From positions 2,638,142 to 2,702,141 of the forward strand of contig NZ_CP085524.1 in NCBI RefSeq assembly GCF_004353525.1: 64,000 bases of DNA. Reading direction: 5' to 3'. The first letter of the stretch is position 1. The number at the start of each line of letters is the position of its first letter. The translations under genes were made by a program, and so were the position numbers. The notes under the pieces are model-generated. The model was not told where the DNA came from. It searched no databases and was given only the letters and a program-made list of their open reading frames with translations. Positions 11,400-63,600 of this stretch are shown here, one piece after another. This DNA comes from Zhaonella formicivorans (lineage in GTDB: Bacteria > Bacillota > DUOV01 > Zhaonellaceae).

Positions 11400-11585
11400 A
11401 ACCTGTTTCAAGCAACAGGTTTAGATTGTAGACAAAGCCAGCATGTATTATTTCGCTCTGGACAAGCTCCTACGCCGTTACCGGCAGCATAGCTGCCGAC
11501 GGCTGGGGAAACCAGTCCCGCTCCATAATACATGCTGGCTGATAATAATTTGTCGAAGGTCTGAACCTGTCTCAAGCGACAGGTT
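11400..11585 (-). repeat. Terminator-inserted palindromic element, copy 1 (with duplicated hairpin flanks)
   Basis: The 142-base element (11422-11563) reads on the minus strand from CAGACCTTCGACAAATTATT to GCTTTGTCTACAAT. Inverted arms AGCCAGCATGTATTAT and ATAATACATGCTGGCT enclose an inner GCCGTCGGCAGC hairpin. It is flanked by AACCTGTTTCAAGCAACAGG (11400-11419) and AACCTGTCTCAAGCGACAGG (11564-11583), two diverged copies of one terminator hairpin. The T-run on the minus strand follows only the distal copy. The element is co-oriented with the bactofilin gene whose terminator it splits. Confidence 0.88.
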
Positions 11586-19985: not shown

Positions 19986-20096
19986 ATAGGTGATTCCTCC
20001 TTTTAAATTTTTTAGAGTAAGCTTAAAAGCTTTAACATTATATTACTTGTAAAAGCAACTAAAATATGTAAACTGTTTTACAAGAAAAATAAAAAG

Positions 20097-20284
20097 TTGC
20101 CACTAATGAGTAGCAACTCAGACTGTCGACAAACTATTAATAGCCAGCATGTATTATGGAGCGGGACTGGTTTCCACAGCCGTCGGCAGCTATGCTGCCG
20201 GTTACGGCGTAGGAGCTTGTCCAGAGCGAAATAATACATGCTGGCTTTGTCTACAAGCTGAATTGCCACTAATGAGTAGCAACT
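20097..20284 (+). repeat. Terminator-inserted palindromic element, copy 2 (with duplicated hairpin flanks)
   Basis: The element (about 20119-20262) begins CAGACTGTCGACAAACTATT and ends CTTTGTCTACAAGCTG. Arms are AGCCAGCATGTATTAT and ATAATACATGCTGGCT, with an inner GCCGTCGGCAGC/GCTGCCGG hairpin. Flanks 20097-20118 and 20263-20284 are an identical 22-base sequence that is itself a hairpin (GTTGC...GCAAC). On the minus strand a T-run follows only the left, distal flank, so the split terminator belongs to the minus-strand gene at 20295. The element lies antisense to that gene. Confidence 0.9.
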
Positions 20285-25254: not shown

Positions 25255-25433
25255 AACCCCGCTAAGGAGTTACAGTGTATAGACAAAGCTCAATTTATTA
25301 CTTTGCTCTGGGCCAGCTCTCACGTGATGACTTTTAGCAAAGCCCCAGCCTAGAGGAAACCAGTCCTGCTCCATAATATATGCGGGCTGATAATAGTTTG
25401 TCGACGGTCTGAATAAATACGCTATTAATATTT
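25255..25433 (-). repeat. Terminator-inserted palindromic element, copy 5 (diverged)
   Basis: The element (25272-25411) reads on the minus strand from CAGACCGTCGACAAACTATT to GCTTTGTCTATACACTGT. The conserved blocks GGAGCAGGACTGGTTTCC and CCCAGAGCAAAGTAATAAAT are still clear, but the arms pair less well. The distal side has a terminator hairpin AACTCCTTAGCGGGGTT with a T-run. The proximal side (25412-25433, AATAAATACGCTATTAATAT) looks like a decayed version of the same sequence and contains the lepB stop codon. Its central loop is of the copy-4 subtype. Confidence 0.7.
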
Positions 25434-32441: not shown

Positions 32442-32646
32442 AAAACCTGGTAATAAACATATTTACCAGGTTTCAGACCGTCGACAAACTATTAACAGCA
32501 AGCATGTATTATGGAGCGGGACTGGTTTCCACAGCCGTCGGCAGCTGTGCTGCCGGCAACGGCGTAGGAGCTTGTCCAGAGCGAAATAATACATGCTTGC
32601 TTTGTCTACAAGTTAAAACCTGGTAATAAACATATTTACCAGGTTT
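32442..32646 (+). repeat. Terminator-inserted palindromic element, copy 3 (best-preserved flanking duplication)
   Basis: The 141-base element (32474-32614) begins CAGACCGTCGACAAACTATT and ends GCTTTGTCTACAAGTT. Arms are AGCAAGCATGTATTAT and ATAATACATGCTTGCT. Flanks 32442-32473 and 32615-32646 are a perfect 32-base direct repeat that is itself a hairpin (AAACCTGGTAA pairing with TTACCAGGTTT). On the minus strand a T-run follows only the left flank, marking it as the original terminator of jag. The element lies antisense to jag. Confidence 0.92.
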
Positions 32647-42629: not shown

Positions 42630-45600
42630 TTGATGCTAATGAATACTAGTCTCCTTGGCCCTGAAGACATCGAAAAACACGCGTTGGAAATAGCTAAAAG
42701 TCATGTAATGGAAGGAAAGACAAGGTTTCCAAAATGGTTAGTGAACCGGCTGGGCAGTAGTTATAAAAATATTTTAGAAGTCTATAAGATTATCAACAGG
42801 GAGACAGGCGGAGAAATTCCCTTATCTCCTACAGCCGAGTGGCTGCTGGATAATTTTTATATCATAGAAGAACAGGTTAAAAACGTAAAACAAAATTTTT
42901 TCAAAAGGTACTGTTTTCAACTGCCAAAGCTTAAAGATAACCGGCTGAAAAATTACCCCAGGGTATATGATCTCGCTCTGGAATTGGTTACCCATACCGA
43001 CGGCAGCATTGACGAAAAAACTTTGGTCAATTTTATCAGAGCTTATCAATCGCAGCAGCAGCTCACTATGGGTGAATTATGGGTACTGTCAGCCATGCTT
43101 AGAATAGCTTTGATTGAAAGAATCAGCCACATTTGCCATCAGCTTGCTGTGGATTATAAGCATAGGCAGGATGCTGAGCACTTGGCTGTCCTCATCATCG
43201 CCGCTGCCGAAAAAGGTGAACACGAGGTTCAAAAAATAATCAATGAACAAATTGAAAATAAAGCCGTTATCAGCACCAGTTTTCTTGTATTTCTGGTACA
43301 AAAGCTTAGAAAGCAAGGAAAAAAGACCGCAGCCCTGATTGGCTATATTGAACAGAAACGGAGAGACAAGGAAGCTTCTTTAGAGGAGTTAATTCAGCTG
43401 GAGCATCAGACGCAAGCAGCCAGGCAGGTTTCCATAGGAAATTCTATAACTAGTCTGCGGATGCTTGCAGCTATTGACTGGAACGAAATTTTTGAGTCGC
43501 TAAGTCATGTGGAAGAAATTCTCAGGCGGGATCCATCAGGCTTTTACAGTCAGATGGATTTTGAATCCAGGGACCATTACCGTCATGCTGTAGAAAAGAT
43601 CTCCTGGTTTTATAATACTTCGGAAATCGATGTTGCTAAGTTGGCTTTAGACTGTGCCCAGGAGGCCTTAGCAAAAAATGAACGGGATCCGGTACGCCAT
43701 GTAGGTTATTATCTGATAGACTCCGGAAGAAAGGCGCTGGAGAAACGGATTGGTGTTAAACCTGCGAGGATTAAAAAAGCCTTTGGTTTTTTCAAAAGGT
43801 ATCCTTATATTGTCTATTTTGGTTCTATAGCGGTGCTAACCCTAATTATAATTTCATTTTTTCTGGGGTATGCAGCCAAGCAGGGAATTATATCCCCCTT
43901 TTGGTTATTAGGCATTGGGCTTGTGCTTTTAATCCCTGTGAGTGATCTGGCCATAAACACAGTTAATTTTGCCTTGAGCCATATCTATGTGCCGACAGTA
44001 CTGCCTAAGTTAGAGTTAAAAGAGGGTATTTCCGAAGAAAACAGCACTATGGTAATTGTTCCAACCCTCTTGCCTAATGCAAACAGAGTAAAAGAACTGT
44101 TGGAGAAATTGGAAATTTATTACCTGGCCAATAAAGAGAACAATCTCTATTTTGCCTTAGTGGGTGATTATAAGGATGCGAATTCCAGGGAGCTGGCTGA
44201 CGACCTCCAAATTGTTGATACAGCGTTAAAGGGTATTAACGATTTAAACCGGCGTTATGCTGAAGCCAAGCCGATTTTCTACTATTTTCACAGAGAACGG
44301 CGTTATAATGCTGCGCAGAAGCAGTGGATGGGTTGGGAGCGGAAAAGAGGGGCTATCATTGAAATAAATGATTTGCTCAGGGGTTCCCGGGATACTGGTT
44401 ACACCATACTTAGCTGTGAAATGTCCCAGATACCTGCTGTTAAGTACATAATAACTCTTGATGCTGATACAAATCTACCCATGGGCGCTGCCAAAAGGCT
44501 CATTGGAACTATGGCCCACCCTTTGAACAGGCCTGTAATCGATCTGAAAAAAGGAATCGTCGTTAAAGGCCATGGCATACTTCAACCACGGATAGGGGTG
44601 AGTATTGAAAGCGCTAACAAGACCCTTTTTTCCAGAATTTTTGCGGGACAGGGAGGTATTGACCCCTATACCACAGCTGTATCCGATGTCTACCAGGATC
44701 TATTTAATGAAGGTATTTTTACAGGAAAAGGCATTTATGAACTGGATACTTTTCAAAGTTTACTGAAAGAATCCATACCTGAAAACAGTGTGCTAAGCCA
44801 TGACCTTTTGGAAGGAAGTTATCTCCGGGCAGGGCTTGTTACTGATATTGAATTAATCGACGGTTATCCCGCCCGCTATAATTCATTTTCCATGCGGCTG
44901 CACCGCTGGGTTAGAGGAGATTGGCAGCTTATTCCTTGGCTCTTGACCAGGGTGAAAGACAGACAGGGGCAGTGGAGAAAGAACCCTCTCTCTGCTCTTT
45001 CAAAGTGGAAGATCCTTGATAATTTAAGAAGAAGTATGTTAAACCCGAGTCTGTTTCTTTTAATTGCCCTGGGCTTTGCAAAGCTACCCGGCAGCAGTAT
45101 GGTTTGGCTGGGGTTAGCCGCTCTGGTAGTTGCATTTCCAACGCTAACATATTTAGCAGGGGGGGTTCTTTCTAAAAATTACCATCTGTTGGAGGGAACA
45201 AAGGGCCAAACTGTTATTACAGGGTTTAAATCCAGCCTTTACCAGGCAAGCCTCCAGTTTCTGTTTATAGCTTATCAGGCATATTTAATGGCTGATGCTA
45301 TCGTTAGGACATTGGGCCGGGTCTTTGTTACCAGAAAGAATTTACTGGAATGGATTCCGGCAGCTGATCTAGAGGCTTTACTGAAAAACGACTTGCGTAC
45401 TTTTTATAAAAAAATGATGGCTTCTCCCTTATTGGGGATATTGGTTTTAATGTTGGCGCTGCTTGGGAAAGATTCAGGCTTGGGAATTGCTGCGGCGGTT
45501 TTAGTCTCCGTGTTCTGGGCAGCTGCGCCTCTGGTGGCCTTTAAAATTAGCCAGGATTATGTTCAAAAGGTAGAGCATTTAAGCGAGCAGGAAATATTTG

Positions 45601-48600
45601 AACTGAGAAGGCTGGCCAGAAAAACCTGGGCCTATTTTGAAGATTTGGTAACTGCTGAAGAAAATTACCTGCCGCCGGATAATTATCAGGTGGACCCGCC
45701 CAATGGGGCAGCTCACCGCACATCCCCCACCAATATCGGGTTATTGTTGGTATCCACCTTGGCGGCCCGGGATTTTGGCTATCTTGGCACCGCCCAAATG
45801 GTTGAAAGGATTGATGCTACCCTGTCTACCGTGGAAAAAATGGAGAAGTGGGAAGGGCATCTGTATAACTGGTATGATACGTTAAGCCTTCAAGTTTTAA
45901 GGCCCAGGTATGTATCTACTGTGGACAGCGGCAATTTTGTGGGCTACCTGATGACTTTGGAAAAAGGGTTAGAGAGATATCTGCACGAGCCCCCGGCTGA
46001 CCTGAGTATGGTTCAAGGTTTACTGGACACTGTCAGGATTTTTAATGAGGAACTTGAAACGGGCGAGCGGGGTATAAATTCCCTAGTGCTGGAGAAATAT
46101 CTGGCCGAAGGAAAGTATGATGCTAAAAGTTTTATGGAAATATTAGACAACATACTGGCTGAGTTGTCCCTGGAGGAAAAAAAGGCAAGGATACAAACTT
46201 CCCCGTGGGGAAGAAAAATTTTGTCCATGGTCGATTCTTTTAAAAAAGAAGCAACAGTTTCAAGCGAAGGGCTCTATGAGCAAGGCCGGAATTTATTGCA
46301 AAGGATCCGGATATTAATCGAAAATACTAGATTTATTCCCCTGTACGACCCTAAAAGGCAGCTTTTCTCCATCGGATATAACGTGGAAGAAGGCATGTTA
46401 ACCAGGTCTTATTATGACTTGCTGGCCTCGGAAGCCAGGTTGGCTAGTTTCATAGCAATTGCCCGGGGGGAAATTGACAAGAAACATTGGTTCAGGCTGG
46501 GGAGAAAGCTTACCAAGGTAGACGGTTCAAAAGGGTTGGTTTCCTGGGCAGGTACCATGTTCGAATATTTTATGCCCCTTTTGGTGATGAGGAATTTTGA
46601 ACATTCCCTGCTGGATGCCACTTATTCCTTTGTAGTGAAAGCGCAAAAAAAATACGGCCAAAAGCGGAAAATTCCCTGGGGAATATCCGAATCGGCTTAC
46701 TATGCCTTTGATATGGACTTAAATTACCAATATAAGGCTTTTGGTGTGCCTGAGCTTGGCTTTAAAAGGGGACTGGGCAATGAGCTGGTGGTAGCCCCTT
46801 ATGCCACAGTACTTGCTTTGACTATTGATCCTAAAGGAGCCGTTAATAATATTGCCAGTTTAAAATCCTCAGGCTTAGATGGGGAGTACGGCTTTTATGA
46901 ATCTATAGACTATACACCGGCCAGAGCAGCTTTTAATGGACAAGGTTTAATAATTAAAAACTTTATGGTCCATCATCAAGGCATGATCATGTTATCGTTA
47001 ACTAACTACTTTAATGATAACATTATGCAAAAGCGTTTCCACGCAAGCCCCCAGATCAGGTCAGCGGAGGTCCTGCTGCAGGAAAGGATGCCCTATAACG
47101 TCGGGATCGTCAAAGAACATCAGGAAGAATATCAACCCCTGAAGAGAAAAGTTCAGGATGTCCCGGAAGTCATCAGAAAATATGGAGTTCCTCATGGCGA
47201 ATTACCCAATGTTCATCTTCTTTCCAATGGAAGCTATTCGGTAATGGTTACTGAAGGGGGGACAGGTTACAGCAAAAATCATGACATAGCGGTTGCCAGG
47301 TGGCGGGAAACCTTGAGAGGTCAAAGTTTTGGATTTTTTATCTACATTCAAAACATCAACTCCAACAATGTCTGGTCTGCCACTTTTGAACCCTATAAGT
47401 TGGAACCTCAAGGATACAGAGTGGTTTTTTCGCCGGATAAGGCCGAATTTATCAGAAAAGACGGCAGTATCGAGACCCATACTCAAATTGTAGTTTCGCC
47501 GGAAGACAACGCTGAGGTCAGAAAAATAACTCTAACCAACAACAGCCGGCATTCCAGGGTTTTGGAAGTAACCAGCTTCTTAGAAGTTGTATTGACCCAT
47601 CCTGATGCAGATTTGGCCCACCCGGCTTTTAGCAACCTCTTTGTAACAACGGAATTTGTTCCTGAATATGGCTGTCTGCTAGCCGTAAGGCGGCCTAGAA
47701 GCCCAGGCCAAAAGCCGGTATGGGCTATGCATACAGTTGCTGCTCTAGGAGAAGTAATCGGGGACCTGCAATACGAAACAGACCGGGCCAAGTTTATCGG
47801 CAGAAACCGGACTTTGGCTAACCCACAGGCCTTAGATGTTGATCAGCCATTGTCCAATTCCGCGGGGGCCGTCCTTGACCCTGTAATGAGTTTAAGAAGA
47901 AGGGTGAAGCTCCCCGCCGGTCACTCAGCAACAATTGCTTATACCCTGGCCGTAACCGACAGCAGGCAAAGTGCTTTTGCTTTAGCTGATAAGTACCGAG
48001 ACATAAAAGCAATTGAGCGGGCCTTTGAATTTGCCTGGAACCGCAGCAGGATTGAAGCGAGTTTCTTGGACATTAAATCCGAAGAAATGGAACTATACCT
48101 GAATATGGTTTCTTCCATTATTTTTCCCGGGCCGGTCAGGCGCAGGTATGAGGAGATTATCTCCAGGAATAACAAAGGACAACCCGGTTTGTGGCCCTAT
48201 GGAATTTCCGGTGACATTCCCATAGTGCTGGCCCATGTTAATGACAAAGAACAAATGGAGCTGGTCTTTAAACTCCTCAAAGCCCATGAGTTTTGGCGGA
48301 TGAGAGGTTTGAAAGTTGACTTGGTTTTCCTGGCCGAGGACGAAAGCGGCTATGTCCAGCCGTTGCAGGACAGCATCAGGGAAGCTGTTTTTGCCAGCCA
48401 TGCCCGGGATATGCTGAACAGGACGGGCGGGGTTTATTTGCTGAACGCTAATTTAATGGCAGAGGAGGAAAAAGCTCTGCTTTATGCTGCAGCCAGATTG
48501 GTATTGCAGGGTGATGCCGGACCTGTCCACGAACAGTTGCTGTGGAAAAAACCAAAAACAAGTGTGCCACGGTTGATTAAAGTTACCGTGAATAGAGGGG

Positions 48601-51059
48601 AAGCAGGCCAAGAATTTCAGCTTGTCGCAACCCCAAAAATCAATTTTTCTCAGCTGCTTTTTTATAACGGAACCGGGGGCTTCAGCCAAGACGGAAAAGA
48701 ATACATTATTTATTTAAGGGAAGGGCAGCACACTCCGGCTCCCTGGATTAACGTGATTGCCAACCCAGGGTTTGGCTTTACTATCACTGAGTCTGGAGCA
48801 GGTTATACCTGGGCGGAAAACAGCCGGGAAAACAAGCTGACCCCCTGGTATAACGACCCTGTAACAGATTTGCCGGGGGAAGTTTTATACCTCAGAGACG
48901 AACAGTCGGGGGATTACTGGAGCATAACTCCAATGCCCATCCGGGAAAAGGAGGATTATGTCATCCGGCATGGAAAAGGGTATACCTCCTTTTGGCATAC
49001 AAGCCATGGTATTGAGCAACAGTTAACGGAGTTTGTATCCCTGGAAGACCCGGTAAAAATTTATCTTGTAAGGTTAAAAAATGAGTCCCGGGTCCCAAGG
49101 AAAATTTCGGTAACCTATTATCTGCGTCCTGTACTTGGGGTCAACGAGCAGGTGAATGCCCAGCATATCATTACCCAAAGTTACGGTGAAAAAGGGATTC
49201 TTTTGCTTAAAAACCCCTATAACTCTGATTTCCCGGGTAGAATTGCTTTTGTTGACACATCGGAAATCCCCAGGACTTTTACCGGCGATGAAGATGAATT
49301 CATTGGGGTGAACGGGGATTTGGAGCGACCGGCCGCCCTGGAAAGAGAAGGACTTTCCGGTACGGTGGGAGCAGGGCTCATGCCCTGCGGGGCTATGCAG
49401 GTGAAGCTGTCCTTAAAACCGGAAGAAACGAGAGAGGTTGTCTTTCTCCTGGGCCAGGGCAAGGATTTAGCTGAAGTATTGTCCATTACAGGTAAATACA
49501 GCAGCGTGACCGCGGCCCGGGAGGAATTGGCCAAATTGCAGGCCTTCTGGGCTGATAAGCTGGAAGTTATCCAGGTAGCAACACCTGATCCGTCCATGGA
49601 CATCCTCTTAAACAGCTGGCTTCAGTATCAGGTCATTTCCTGCCGGTTATGGTCCAGGGCTGCTTTTTACCAGTCGGGGGGAGCCTACGGCTTTAGAGAC
49701 CAGCTGCAGGATGTAATGGCAGTAGCCTACACCTGGCCGGAGCTGACCAGAAAACAAATTTTGCTCCACGCGGCCCACCAGTTTGTTGAGGGAGATGTTC
49801 AGCACTGGTGGCACCCGGGTGTTAATAAAGGTATCCGGACCAGGTATTCCGATGATTTTCTATGGCTGCCTTACGTAACAGCTGACTATGTGCAGTGTAC
49901 CGGCGACTGGACTATTTTGGATGAAGCGGTTACTTTTTTGGAAGATGAGCCTTTACCTGTAGATGAAGATGAAAGGTATAATATACCCAGGATTTCGCAA
50001 GAAAAAGATACTATTTACAGCCACTGCCTCAGGGCTATTGAGAATGCTTTAAAATTCGGTGCTCACGGACTGCCCCTGATGGGCTCAGGCGACTGGAACG
50101 ACGGCATGAATACCGTAGGGAATAAAGGAAAAGGGGAAAGCGTCTGGTTGGGCTGGTTTCTCTATACGGTCCTAACAAAGTTTATTCCCATCTGCGCAGC
50201 CCGTAATGAGCAGCAAAGGGCGGAACGATATTCCCGAATTGCCGCCGAGCTCGCCGTAGCTATCGAGAAAAATGCCTGGGATGGCAGCTGGTACCGGAGG
50301 GCATATTTTGATGATGGCACACCCTTAGGCTCAGCAGCCAACAGTGAATGTAAAATTGACTCCATTGCCCAGTCATGGGCTGTCATTTCAGAGGTCGGCA
50401 GACCCAGCCGGGCGGAAGAAGCCATGCAGGCTGTGGAAAATTACCTGGTTGACCGGGAGGCCGGGATCATTAAACTGCTCACTCCCCCCTTCGGCGACGG
50501 GCAGCTTCAGCCCGGCTACATCAAAGGCTATGTTCCGGGAGTCAGGGAAAACGGGGGCCAGTATACCCATGCGGCCGTGTGGACAGTTTTGGCCTTTGCC
50601 AAGCTGGGAATGGGAGATAAAGCCTGGGAACTGTTCCATTTAATTAACCCAGTAAACCATGGGCGCACTCCGATGGGAGTGATGCGCTATAAAGTGGAAC
50701 CTTATGTACTTGCTGCTGACGTTTATGCGGTGCACCCTAACGCCGGTCGCGGAGGGTGGACCTGGTACACAGGCGCTGCAGGATGGATGTACCGGGTAGG
50801 GATTGAGCATCTCCTGGGAATAAAAAAACTTGGCGCAAACCTCTTTTTCGACCCATGTATTCCTAAAGACTGGCCTGGGTTTGAGGTTCGTTACAAGCTG
50901 CCAAAAACATTATACCGGATTCGCGTCCGAAATCCCAAGAGGGTCAATAAAGGTGTGGTAAAGGTTATTGTTAACGGTAAGGAGGTTCCTGAAGTTTATG
51001 TTCCCCTGGTGGATGACGGTAAAGAGTATGCAGTAGAAGTGATTATGGGTAAAAAATGA
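42630..51059 (+). CDS. Cyclic beta-1,2-glucan synthase-type giant protein (GT84-glucoamylase-GH94)
   Basis: The largest gene here, 2,809 residues. Order of parts: a soluble N-terminal region (1-385), two transmembrane helices (about 389-452), a family-84 glycosyltransferase-like domain with IITLDADTNLPMGAAKRLIG (near 610), a further membrane block (about 800-980) and a glucoamylase-like domain (GEYGFYESIDYTPARAAF, HHQGMIM near 1448). Two carbohydrate-binding/phosphorylase supersandwich regions follow, and last a GH94 (alpha/alpha)6 domain with GSGDWNDGMN near 2487, where the Asp is the expected general acid. This is the NdvB layout: synthesis from UDP-glucose at the membrane and chain-length trimming by phosphorolysis. 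The sugar linkage made here is inferred. TTG start at 42630. ATG 42633 and ATG 42639 are alternatives. Confidence 0.9.
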   Translation: MMLMNTSLLGPEDIEKHALEIAKSHVMEGKTRFPKWLVNRLGSSYKNILEVYKIINRETGGEIPLSPTAEWLLDNFYIIEEQVKNVKQNFFKRYCFQLPKLKDNRLKNYPRVYDLALELVTHTDGSIDEKTLVNFIRAYQSQQQLTMGELWVLSAMLRIALIERISHICHQLAVDYKHRQDAEHLAVLIIAAAEKGEHEVQKIINEQIENKAVISTSFLVFLVQKLRKQGKKTAALIGYIEQKRRDKEASLEELIQLEHQTQAARQVSIGNSITSLRMLAAIDWNEIFESLSHVEEILRRDPSGFYSQMDFESRDHYRHAVEKISWFYNTSEIDVAKLALDCAQEALAKNERDPVRHVGYYLIDSGRKALEKRIGVKPARIKKAFGFFKRYPYIVYFGSIAVLTLIIISFFLGYAAKQGIISPFWLLGIGLVLLIPVSDLAINTVNFALSHIYVPTVLPKLELKEGISEENSTMVIVPTLLPNANRVKELLEKLEIYYLANKENNLYFALVGDYKDANSRELADDLQIVDTALKGINDLNRRYAEAKPIFYYFHRERRYNAAQKQWMGWERKRGAIIEINDLLRGSRDTGYTILSCEMSQIPAVKYIITLDADTNLPMGAAKRLIGTMAHPLNRPVIDLKKGIVVKGHGILQPRIGVSIESANKTLFSRIFAGQGGIDPYTTAVSDVYQDLFNEGIFTGKGIYELDTFQSLLKESIPENSVLSHDLLEGSYLRAGLVTDIELIDGYPARYNSFSMRLHRWVRGDWQLIPWLLTRVKDRQGQWRKNPLSALSKWKILDNLRRSMLNPSLFLLIALGFAKLPGSSMVWLGLAALVVAFPTLTYLAGGVLSKNYHLLEGTKGQTVITGFKSSLYQASLQFLFIAYQAYLMADAIVRTLGRVFVTRKNLLEWIPAADLEALLKNDLRTFYKKMMASPLLGILVLMLALLGKDSGLGIAAAVLVSVFWAAAPLVAFKISQDYVQKVEHLSEQEIFELRRLARKTWAYFEDLVTAEENYLPPDNYQVDPPNGAAHRTSPTNIGLLLVSTLAARDFGYLGTAQMVERIDATLSTVEKMEKWEGHLYNWYDTLSLQVLRPRYVSTVDSGNFVGYLMTLEKGLERYLHEPPADLSMVQGLLDTVRIFNEELETGERGINSLVLEKYLAEGKYDAKSFMEILDNILAELSLEEKKARIQTSPWGRKILSMVDSFKKEATVSSEGLYEQGRNLLQRIRILIENTRFIPLYDPKRQLFSIGYNVEEGMLTRSYYDLLASEARLASFIAIARGEIDKKHWFRLGRKLTKVDGSKGLVSWAGTMFEYFMPLLVMRNFEHSLLDATYSFVVKAQKKYGQKRKIPWGISESAYYAFDMDLNYQYKAFGVPELGFKRGLGNELVVAPYATVLALTIDPKGAVNNIASLKSSGLDGEYGFYESIDYTPARAAFNGQGLIIKNFMVHHQGMIMLSLTNYFNDNIMQKRFHASPQIRSAEVLLQERMPYNVGIVKEHQEEYQPLKRKVQDVPEVIRKYGVPHGELPNVHLLSNGSYSVMVTEGGTGYSKNHDIAVARWRETLRGQSFGFFIYIQNINSNNVWSATFEPYKLEPQGYRVVFSPDKAEFIRKDGSIETHTQIVVSPEDNAEVRKITLTNNSRHSRVLEVTSFLEVVLTHPDADLAHPAFSNLFVTTEFVPEYGCLLAVRRPRSPGQKPVWAMHTVAALGEVIGDLQYETDRAKFIGRNRTLANPQALDVDQPLSNSAGAVLDPVMSLRRRVKLPAGHSATIAYTLAVTDSRQSAFALADKYRDIKAIERAFEFAWNRSRIEASFLDIKSEEMELYLNMVSSIIFPGPVRRRYEEIISRNNKGQPGLWPYGISGDIPIVLAHVNDKEQMELVFKLLKAHEFWRMRGLKVDLVFLAEDESGYVQPLQDSIREAVFASHARDMLNRTGGVYLLNANLMAEEEKALLYAAARLVLQGDAGPVHEQLLWKKPKTSVPRLIKVTVNRGEAGQEFQLVATPKINFSQLLFYNGTGGFSQDGKEYIIYLREGQHTPAPWINVIANPGFGFTITESGAGYTWAENSRENKLTPWYNDPVTDLPGEVLYLRDEQSGDYWSITPMPIREKEDYVIRHGKGYTSFWHTSHGIEQQLTEFVSLEDPVKIYLVRLKNESRVPRKISVTYYLRPVLGVNEQVNAQHIITQSYGEKGILLLKNPYNSDFPGRIAFVDTSEIPRTFTGDEDEFIGVNGDLERPAALEREGLSGTVGAGLMPCGAMQVKLSLKPEETREVVFLLGQGKDLAEVLSITGKYSSVTAAREELAKLQAFWADKLEVIQVATPDPSMDILLNSWLQYQVISCRLWSRAAFYQSGGAYGFRDQLQDVMAVAYTWPELTRKQILLHAAHQFVEGDVQHWWHPGVNKGIRTRYSDDFLWLPYVTADYVQCTGDWTILDEAVTFLEDEPLPVDEDERYNIPRISQEKDTIYSHCLRAIENALKFGAHGLPLMGSGDWNDGMNTVGNKGKGESVWLGWFLYTVLTKFIPICAARNEQQRAERYSRIAAELAVAIEKNAWDGSWYRRAYFDDGTPLGSAANSECKIDSIAQSWAVISEVGRPSRAEEAMQAVENYLVDREAGIIKLLTPPFGDGQLQPGYIKGYVPGVRENGGQYTHAAVWTVLAFAKLGMGDKAWELFHLINPVNHGRTPMGVMRYKVEPYVLAADVYAVHPNAGRGGWTWYTGAAGWMYRVGIEHLLGIKKLGANLFFDPCIPKDWPGFEVRYKLPKTLYRIRVRNPKRVNKGVVKVIVNGKEVPEVYVPLVDDGKEYAVEVIMGKK

Positions 51060-63332: not shown

Positions 63333-63537
63333 TTCTCACCTTATGAATGTAGGTGAGTCAGACTGTCCACAAACTATTATGAGCTCGAATGTTATTATGG
63401 AGCGGGACTGGTTTCGCTCTGGGCTGGCGGCTTTGCCAAAAGTCAACGCGTGCGAGCTTGTCCAGAGCGAAATAATACATTCGAGCTTTGTCTATGAGAT
63501 TGTTTACAAGCTAACTCACCTTATGAAATGTAAGGTG
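63333..63537 (+). repeat. Terminator-inserted palindromic element, copy 4 (with duplicated hairpin flanks)
   Basis: The element (about 63356-63510) begins CAGACTGTCCACAAACTATT. Arms are GAGCTCGAATGTTATTAT and ATAATACATTCGAGCT, changed on both sides relative to copies 1-3. The central loop has GGCGGCTTTGCCAAAAGTC, the second subtype. Flanks CTCACCTTATGAATGTAGG and CTCACCTTATGAAATGTAAG (each closing with GTGAG) are diverged copies of one hairpin, and TTTTTT follows only the right, distal one. This is the gyrA terminator, and the element is co-oriented with gyrA. Confidence 0.88.
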
Positions 63538-63600
63538 AGTTTTTTACTGTTTGCTTATAACAGGTACCAATTGGATACACTGATACCTGAGGTGGTCGAA

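Follow-up and report, generated by a model that had tools for sequence, protein, structure and literature searches.

The window, by which we mean the whole 64-kb stretch analysed (positions 2638142-2702141 of the single-contig 3.31-Mb genome of Zhaonella formicivorans), contains five related elements, at 11422-11563 (minus strand), 20119-20260 (plus), 25273-25411 (minus), 32474-32615 (plus) and 63359-63512 (plus). They are referred to here as copies 1 to 5. The window also contains a 2809-aa open reading frame, at 42630-51059.

Copy 4 begins with CAGACCGTCGACAAAC and ends with CTTTGTCTACAAGTTA, and is flanked by a perfect 31-nt hairpin pair, AAACCTGGTAATAAACATATTTACCAGGTTT, at 32443-32473 and 32616-32646. 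The left stem-loop is preceded by an A tract (a T tract on the minus strand), and the right one is the second copy of this terminator stem-loop. The terminal inverted repeat at the CAGACC end (32474-32489, plus strand) matches the IS1182-family end CAGACTGTCGACAAAG, while the repeat at the other end (32600-32615, minus strand) has the family consensus CAGCTTGTAGACAAAG when read inward, a 16-mer that is also found at IS1182-family ends. The element has an internal palindromic core, whose left arm (32497-32512) is complementary at 16 of 16 positions to the right arm (32586-32601).

Copies 1, 2 and 5 have the same arrangement. The hairpins beside copy 1 (AACCTGTTTCAAGCAACAGGTT at 11400-11421 and AACCTGTCTCAAGCGACAGGTT at 11564-11585) are 22 nt long and differ by two mismatches, and those beside copy 2 (AGTTGCCACTAATGAGTAGCAACT at 20095-20118 and AATTGCCACTAATGAGTAGCAACT at 20261-20284) are 24 nt long with one mismatch. 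The pair beside copy 5 is imperfect, at 24-29 nt, and consists of CTCACCTTATGAATGTAGGTGAGT at 63335-63358 and AACTCACCTTATGAAATGTAAGGTGAGTT, which carries a T tract, at 63513-63541; the right boundary of this copy was placed by eye from the duplication, between GTTTACAAGCTA and ACTCACC. The exception is copy 3, which is diverged and adjoins a single hairpin (AACCCCGCTAAGGAGTT, 25255-25271), a second copy of which was not found. In each pair only one hairpin carries the outward T tract (or, on the other side, an A tract). The original prediction had named all five elements, the duplicated stem-loops at four of them and the single T tract per pair, and each of these observations holds. It had also assigned the perfect repeat to copy 3, which is an error of numbering rather than of content, since the copy numbers were shuffled and the repeat belongs to the element at 32.47 kb.

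Further copies were gathered from the whole genome by a DNA search, two end-pattern searches and inspection of the stretches around the matches. At least 48 copies in the genome have both ends, and these fall into four size classes: 139-144 bp (approximately; most copies), about 199-203 bp, about 264-268 bp, and 408 bp. The ends are common to all classes, and the insides are partly different. The terminal inverted repeats follow the pattern CAG[AC].(T/C)GT.GACAAA and are imperfect, being CAGAC[CT]GTCGACAAAC at one end and CAGCTTGTAGACAAAG at the opposite end. The elements are short, have no coding capacity, carry terminal inverted repeats, are associated with a target duplication and occur in many dispersed copies, and are therefore described here as MITEs.

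The insides of the MITEs show several rearrangements. In four copies (L022, L024, L028 and L082) the core runs in the opposite orientation to the ends, probably through recombination or hairpin flipping, because a 16-bp inverted repeat bounds the core. In the class of about 203 bp (eight stretches), a module resembling a REP/RAYT-type palindrome, GGGGACATTCCTCAGC...GTGTGTCCCCTG, takes the place of part of the core. In the 266- and 408-bp classes (seven stretches) the common ends enclose an unrelated palindromic sequence, ATTGTAACCC...GGGTTACAATTTTT, and portions of this sequence were also found outside such elements, in four stretches. A lone terminal repeat (positions 2862-2881 of stretch L066) lies next to a terminator hairpin, immediately downstream of a gene for a substrate-binding protein, with no second end within about 3 kb.

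Related MITEs occur in other genomes. The 139-bp form was found in one Thermoanaerobacterales and one Tepidanaerobacteraceae assembly (five stretches), at 82-87% identity to the Zhaonella consensus and with hairpins duplicated or partly duplicated. Seinonella and other genomes have further MITEs, whose ends are the same and whose internal sequence is unrelated. One related genome (G001) contains diverged copies, and another (G002) contains the internal palindromic core only, without the ends; we noted about 35 such core copies there, with neither IS1182-type ends nor a visible duplication. It may be that the core is a mobile repeat in its own right, acquired by the MITE.

The duplication of the hairpin was tested over all 48 copies, by aligning the 40 nt before each copy with the 40 nt after it and using wrong pairings of flanks as the control. 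The mean alignment score was 16.3 for the true pairs and 5.85 for the wrong ones (sd 1.33, maximum 13), and none of 10,000 permutations reached the observed mean. The true pair scored above the 99th percentile of the wrong pairs in 38 of the 48 copies, and above all 2256 wrong pairs in 34. The stem-loop sequence differs from site to site, while the left and right flanks at each site match each other. Thus most genomic copies are flanked by a duplicated hairpin, as would be expected for the non-autonomous, terminator-targeting and terminator-duplicating element that had been proposed.

Among these 38 copies, the duplication is 16-33 nt long in the aligned left copies (median 22), with a mean identity of 0.92 between the two hairpins, and on each side it is directly flush with the MITE repeat in 30 copies. 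Both flanks have a much stronger fold than shuffled sequence does (mean z -4.1 and -3.3). In 34 of the 38 copies the stem sets in at base 1 of the duplication, and in 29 it extends to the final base. A terminator signature, either A-rich sequence left of the left hairpin or T-rich sequence right of the right one, is present in 31. The remaining ten of the 48 copies have no recognisable duplication, five of them having a clear hairpin on one side only; these ten have presumably decayed or recombined.

No transposase with these ends was matched in the Zhaonella genome at E<=1e-30. The best match there to NF033551 scores 97.8 bits, against a cut-off of 270, and belongs to an IS with other ends and 5-bp duplications. 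A gene-bearing longer version of the MITE was also sought in the same genome by pairing of ends, which gave only the gene-less forms of 200, 266 and 408 bp. Two resident elements were considered as mobilisers and rejected. One is a 1707-bp IS present at 531, 1224 and 2252 kb of the genome, with a transposase that is distantly IS1182/IS5-like; it is ruled out by its ends (GAGCTWWTTGC) and its 5-bp duplications (TCTTA, GTTGT and CCCTG). The other is an IS1634-like IS, ruled out by its unrelated ends (ACCGTTG..). The IS1202 and IS1634 families were weighed on account of their long duplications and dropped.

The probable parent was found by scanning the 18-mer CAGCTTGTAGACAAAGCY against 84,980 species genomes, which yielded 76 stretches. 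In nearly every match from Bacillota (Thermosediminibacter, Tepidanaerobacteraceae, Selenomonadaceae, Domibacillus, Seinonella and Oscillospiraceae) a terminator hairpin directly precedes the repeat. Matches in other phyla lack the hairpin, and look like chance. In Thermosediminibacter litoriperuensis the repeat is followed by sequence encoding the C-terminus of an IS1182-family transposase, with the N-terminus encoded at the opposite contig ends. In other genomes CAGACTGTCGACAAA[C/G] and CAGCTTGTAGACAAAG bound IS1182 IS copies at their two ends. A search with the transposase protein found it in 30 of 398 genomes of the phylum. All six aligned transposases match NF033551 (IS1182 family; best E 4e-142), as well as PF13751 and PF05598, and the first of them scores 472 bits where the cut-off is 270. 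A sequence search of solved structures with the transposase gave no match. The structure model is weak (mean pLDDT 62.5), and its best PDB folds, piggyBat and Tn5, have E values no better than 2.8e-3; these matches indicate no more than a DDE fold, and form no part of the argument.

We collected 26 complete single-contig IS copies with a stem-loop duplication, from 10 other genomes. The duplications are 17-35 nt long, and in 24 of the 26 they are exact, over 17-34 nt. Where pairing was computed (16 duplications), the stem reaches the first base in all 16 and the last base in 15. In one copy (L254) a 35-nt stem-loop is duplicated with its loop inverted between the two sides (GAAGATTC and GAATCTTC). 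Two further complete copies (L245 and L249) have a different hairpin on each side, which would be explained by recombination between copies, or by decay. The IS1182-family terminal repeats, the choice of target and its duplication are thus all common to the MITE and to its autonomous relatives.

The insertions in T. litoriperuensis appear as pairs of contig ends, because the repeated IS breaks the assembly. Six of the seven CAGACT ends share an identical stem-loop of 19-25 nt with exactly one CAGCTT end, at offset 0 and flush with both repeats, whereas the other end pairings shown have at most 10 nt in common. When joined, the flanks form an ordinary terminator. The sister species G053, of the same genus, has five of the six sites in the empty state, each with a single hairpin. 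At two of them (L229 and L231) the alignment is unbroken, at 95-96% identity; at the other three (L238, L234 and L236) the left flank is conserved and the right side is rearranged or more diverged. The original prediction had asked for empty sites with one hairpin, and the orthologous sites of the autonomous relative do carry one and not two. It follows that the insertion created the second hairpin. The outcome described for IS1272, in which the stem-loop is lost and there is no duplication, was not seen: the stem-loop is kept twice in filled sites and is present once in empty ones.

The elements share their terminal repeats with IS1182-family insertion sequences, they insert into terminator stem-loops irrespective of sequence, and the complete stem-loop, measured between the two feet of the stem, is present once before insertion and twice after it. 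Our reading of these sequence comparisons is that the elements are MITEs with IS1182-family terminal repeats, which would be moved by a transposase of that family and would take terminator stem-loops as targets, duplicating them on insertion; we give this a probability of roughly 0.93. Since no such transposase is left in the Zhaonella genome, mobilisation by an IS1182 transposase is deduced from the shared ends and the shared target behaviour. The mobilising transposase is gone from this genome, or was supplied from outside. A matching transposase in the same genome is not strictly a requirement for a MITE, because the partner can be lost.

At the molecular level, cruciform recognition and the chemistry of strand transfer can be proposed as follows. 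Paired strand transfer would occur at the two feet of the cruciform stem, and gap filling would then copy the stem-loop onto both sides of the element. Because the A tract is left outside the left copy and the T tract outside the right one, each side retains an outward-facing terminator, which would make the insertion nearly neutral for the neighbouring genes.

The same element could arrive at the same result if the second hairpin came from a single-stranded hairpin, at a replication fork or in a transcription bubble, followed by repair or template switching. Transcription does pass through terminators, and single strands fold easily into hairpins; the inverted loop of L254, together with the inverted MITE cores (L022, L024 and L028), implies that hairpins flip or strands switch on at least some occasions. 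Against this, 24 complete IS copies have exact duplications of 17-34 nt, and the duplications have their limits at the feet of the stem, which is what two defined cuts predict. Staggered joints of this kind are the normal product of a DDE transposase, so that we regard the single-stranded route as unlikely, though deserving some weight. Bacteria do have tandem terminators, and the hairpins might have been in place before the element came to lie between them by chance or selection. This is hardly credible, given that each hairpin matches its own partner and not the hairpins of other sites, and that the orthologous sites in the sister species have a single one.

Cas1 integration, as in CRISPR adaptation, likewise duplicates a complete palindromic unit (about 20-30 nt), and a Cas1-type (casposon-like) integrase would make similar insertions. 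The gene in the complete elements is nevertheless an IS1182 DDE transposase, and the insertion sites have no common sequence, which leaves this reading with next to no probability. Group IIC introns settle behind terminators and the internal modules of the MITE are palindromic and REP-like, which would suit a group IIC intron, another retroelement or a REP/RAYT (IS200-type) element. We consider this very improbable: an Rfam search of the window gave no match, the elements have terminal inverted repeats and a target duplication, and the gene found inside these ends is a DDE transposase. Duplications of this sort are not known either from group IIC introns or from IS200 elements.

A divergent sub-branch (36% identity, four copies, G398) has the ends GGGTCTGTTGACAAA and occupies the middle of AAATT...AATTT palindromes, with 4-bp duplications (GCGC, ACGT and CCAG) in three of the four copies. 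There are thus three outcomes in the IS1182 family: the stem-loop is duplicated, its centre is duplicated (G398), or it is removed (IS1272). They correspond to the three pathways sketched by Wan et al. (PMC5678879). As a tentative generalisation, somewhat less likely than its negation, a widespread Bacillota branch of IS1182 might be directed to folded DNA, whatever its sequence, at intrinsic terminators, with the feet of the stem setting the cuts and the terminator rebuilt on each side, a self-neutralising choice of target undescribed before; its sub-branches would then differ mainly in whether the cut is made at the foot, at the centre (4 bp) or with replacement.

For most DDE transposons the duplicated target is short and of constant length. 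In these elements the length of the duplication (16-35 nt) varies with the fold of the target, and the duplication is therefore an immediate trace left by a transposase that seems to recognise DNA structure. The elements offer dozens of natural target sites, with empty-site controls and small mobilisable substrates, for studies of hairpin and cruciform recognition by DDE enzymes, and material for asking whether hairpins or cruciforms form at terminators in living cells. They also provide one route by which bacteria gain tandem identical terminators, and a named IS1182 branch for annotators. Duplications of 0-60 bp are reportedly listed for the IS1182 family in ISfinder.

It is already known that IS1182 elements enter terminator hairpins (PMC4923244, PMC5678879, PMC3098183). 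For this reason the original statement that known elements are not built this way was too strong, although the terminator-targeting element that it described stands, and its family can now be given as IS1182. What appears to be new is the duplication of the whole stem-loop: the literature searched, with most subscription papers outside the search, gave no paper documenting it, and it is present there only as a hypothetical pathway (pathway b in Figure 13 of Wan et al., PMC5678879). IS1182 relatives may or may not produce a duplication, and are able to recognise a DNA structure (PMC12056078). Of the systems nearest to this one, IS1272 and TnSha1 of staphylococci have a transposase of the same family and likewise take a stem-loop of any sequence as target, several sites being terminators confirmed by RNA-seq; in contrast to the elements here, which keep and duplicate the stem-loop, IS1272 deletes or replaces it, with no target duplication (PMC5678879, PMC4923244). 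The ISCbo5/ISBma2-like IS1182 elements of clostridia are autonomous, and nearly all their insertion sites are hairpins at gene ends; the accessible part of that report mentions the surrounding hairpin and does not describe a duplication (PMC3098183). MITEPye1 of Paracoccus yeei is also a MITE with IS1182-family-like terminal repeats, but it has 4-bp direct repeats, and the available portion of its description reports no terminator target (PMC11578231). The IS1634 and IS1202 families make long target duplications, as here, the latter having TGT...ACA ends and a TnsB-like transposase (PMC10132070). IS1397, ISPpu10 and similar elements also have palindromic targets, but according to the part of the source available these belong to one repeated sequence family, REP (PMC1525189), whereas for the elements described here any terminator hairpin will serve.
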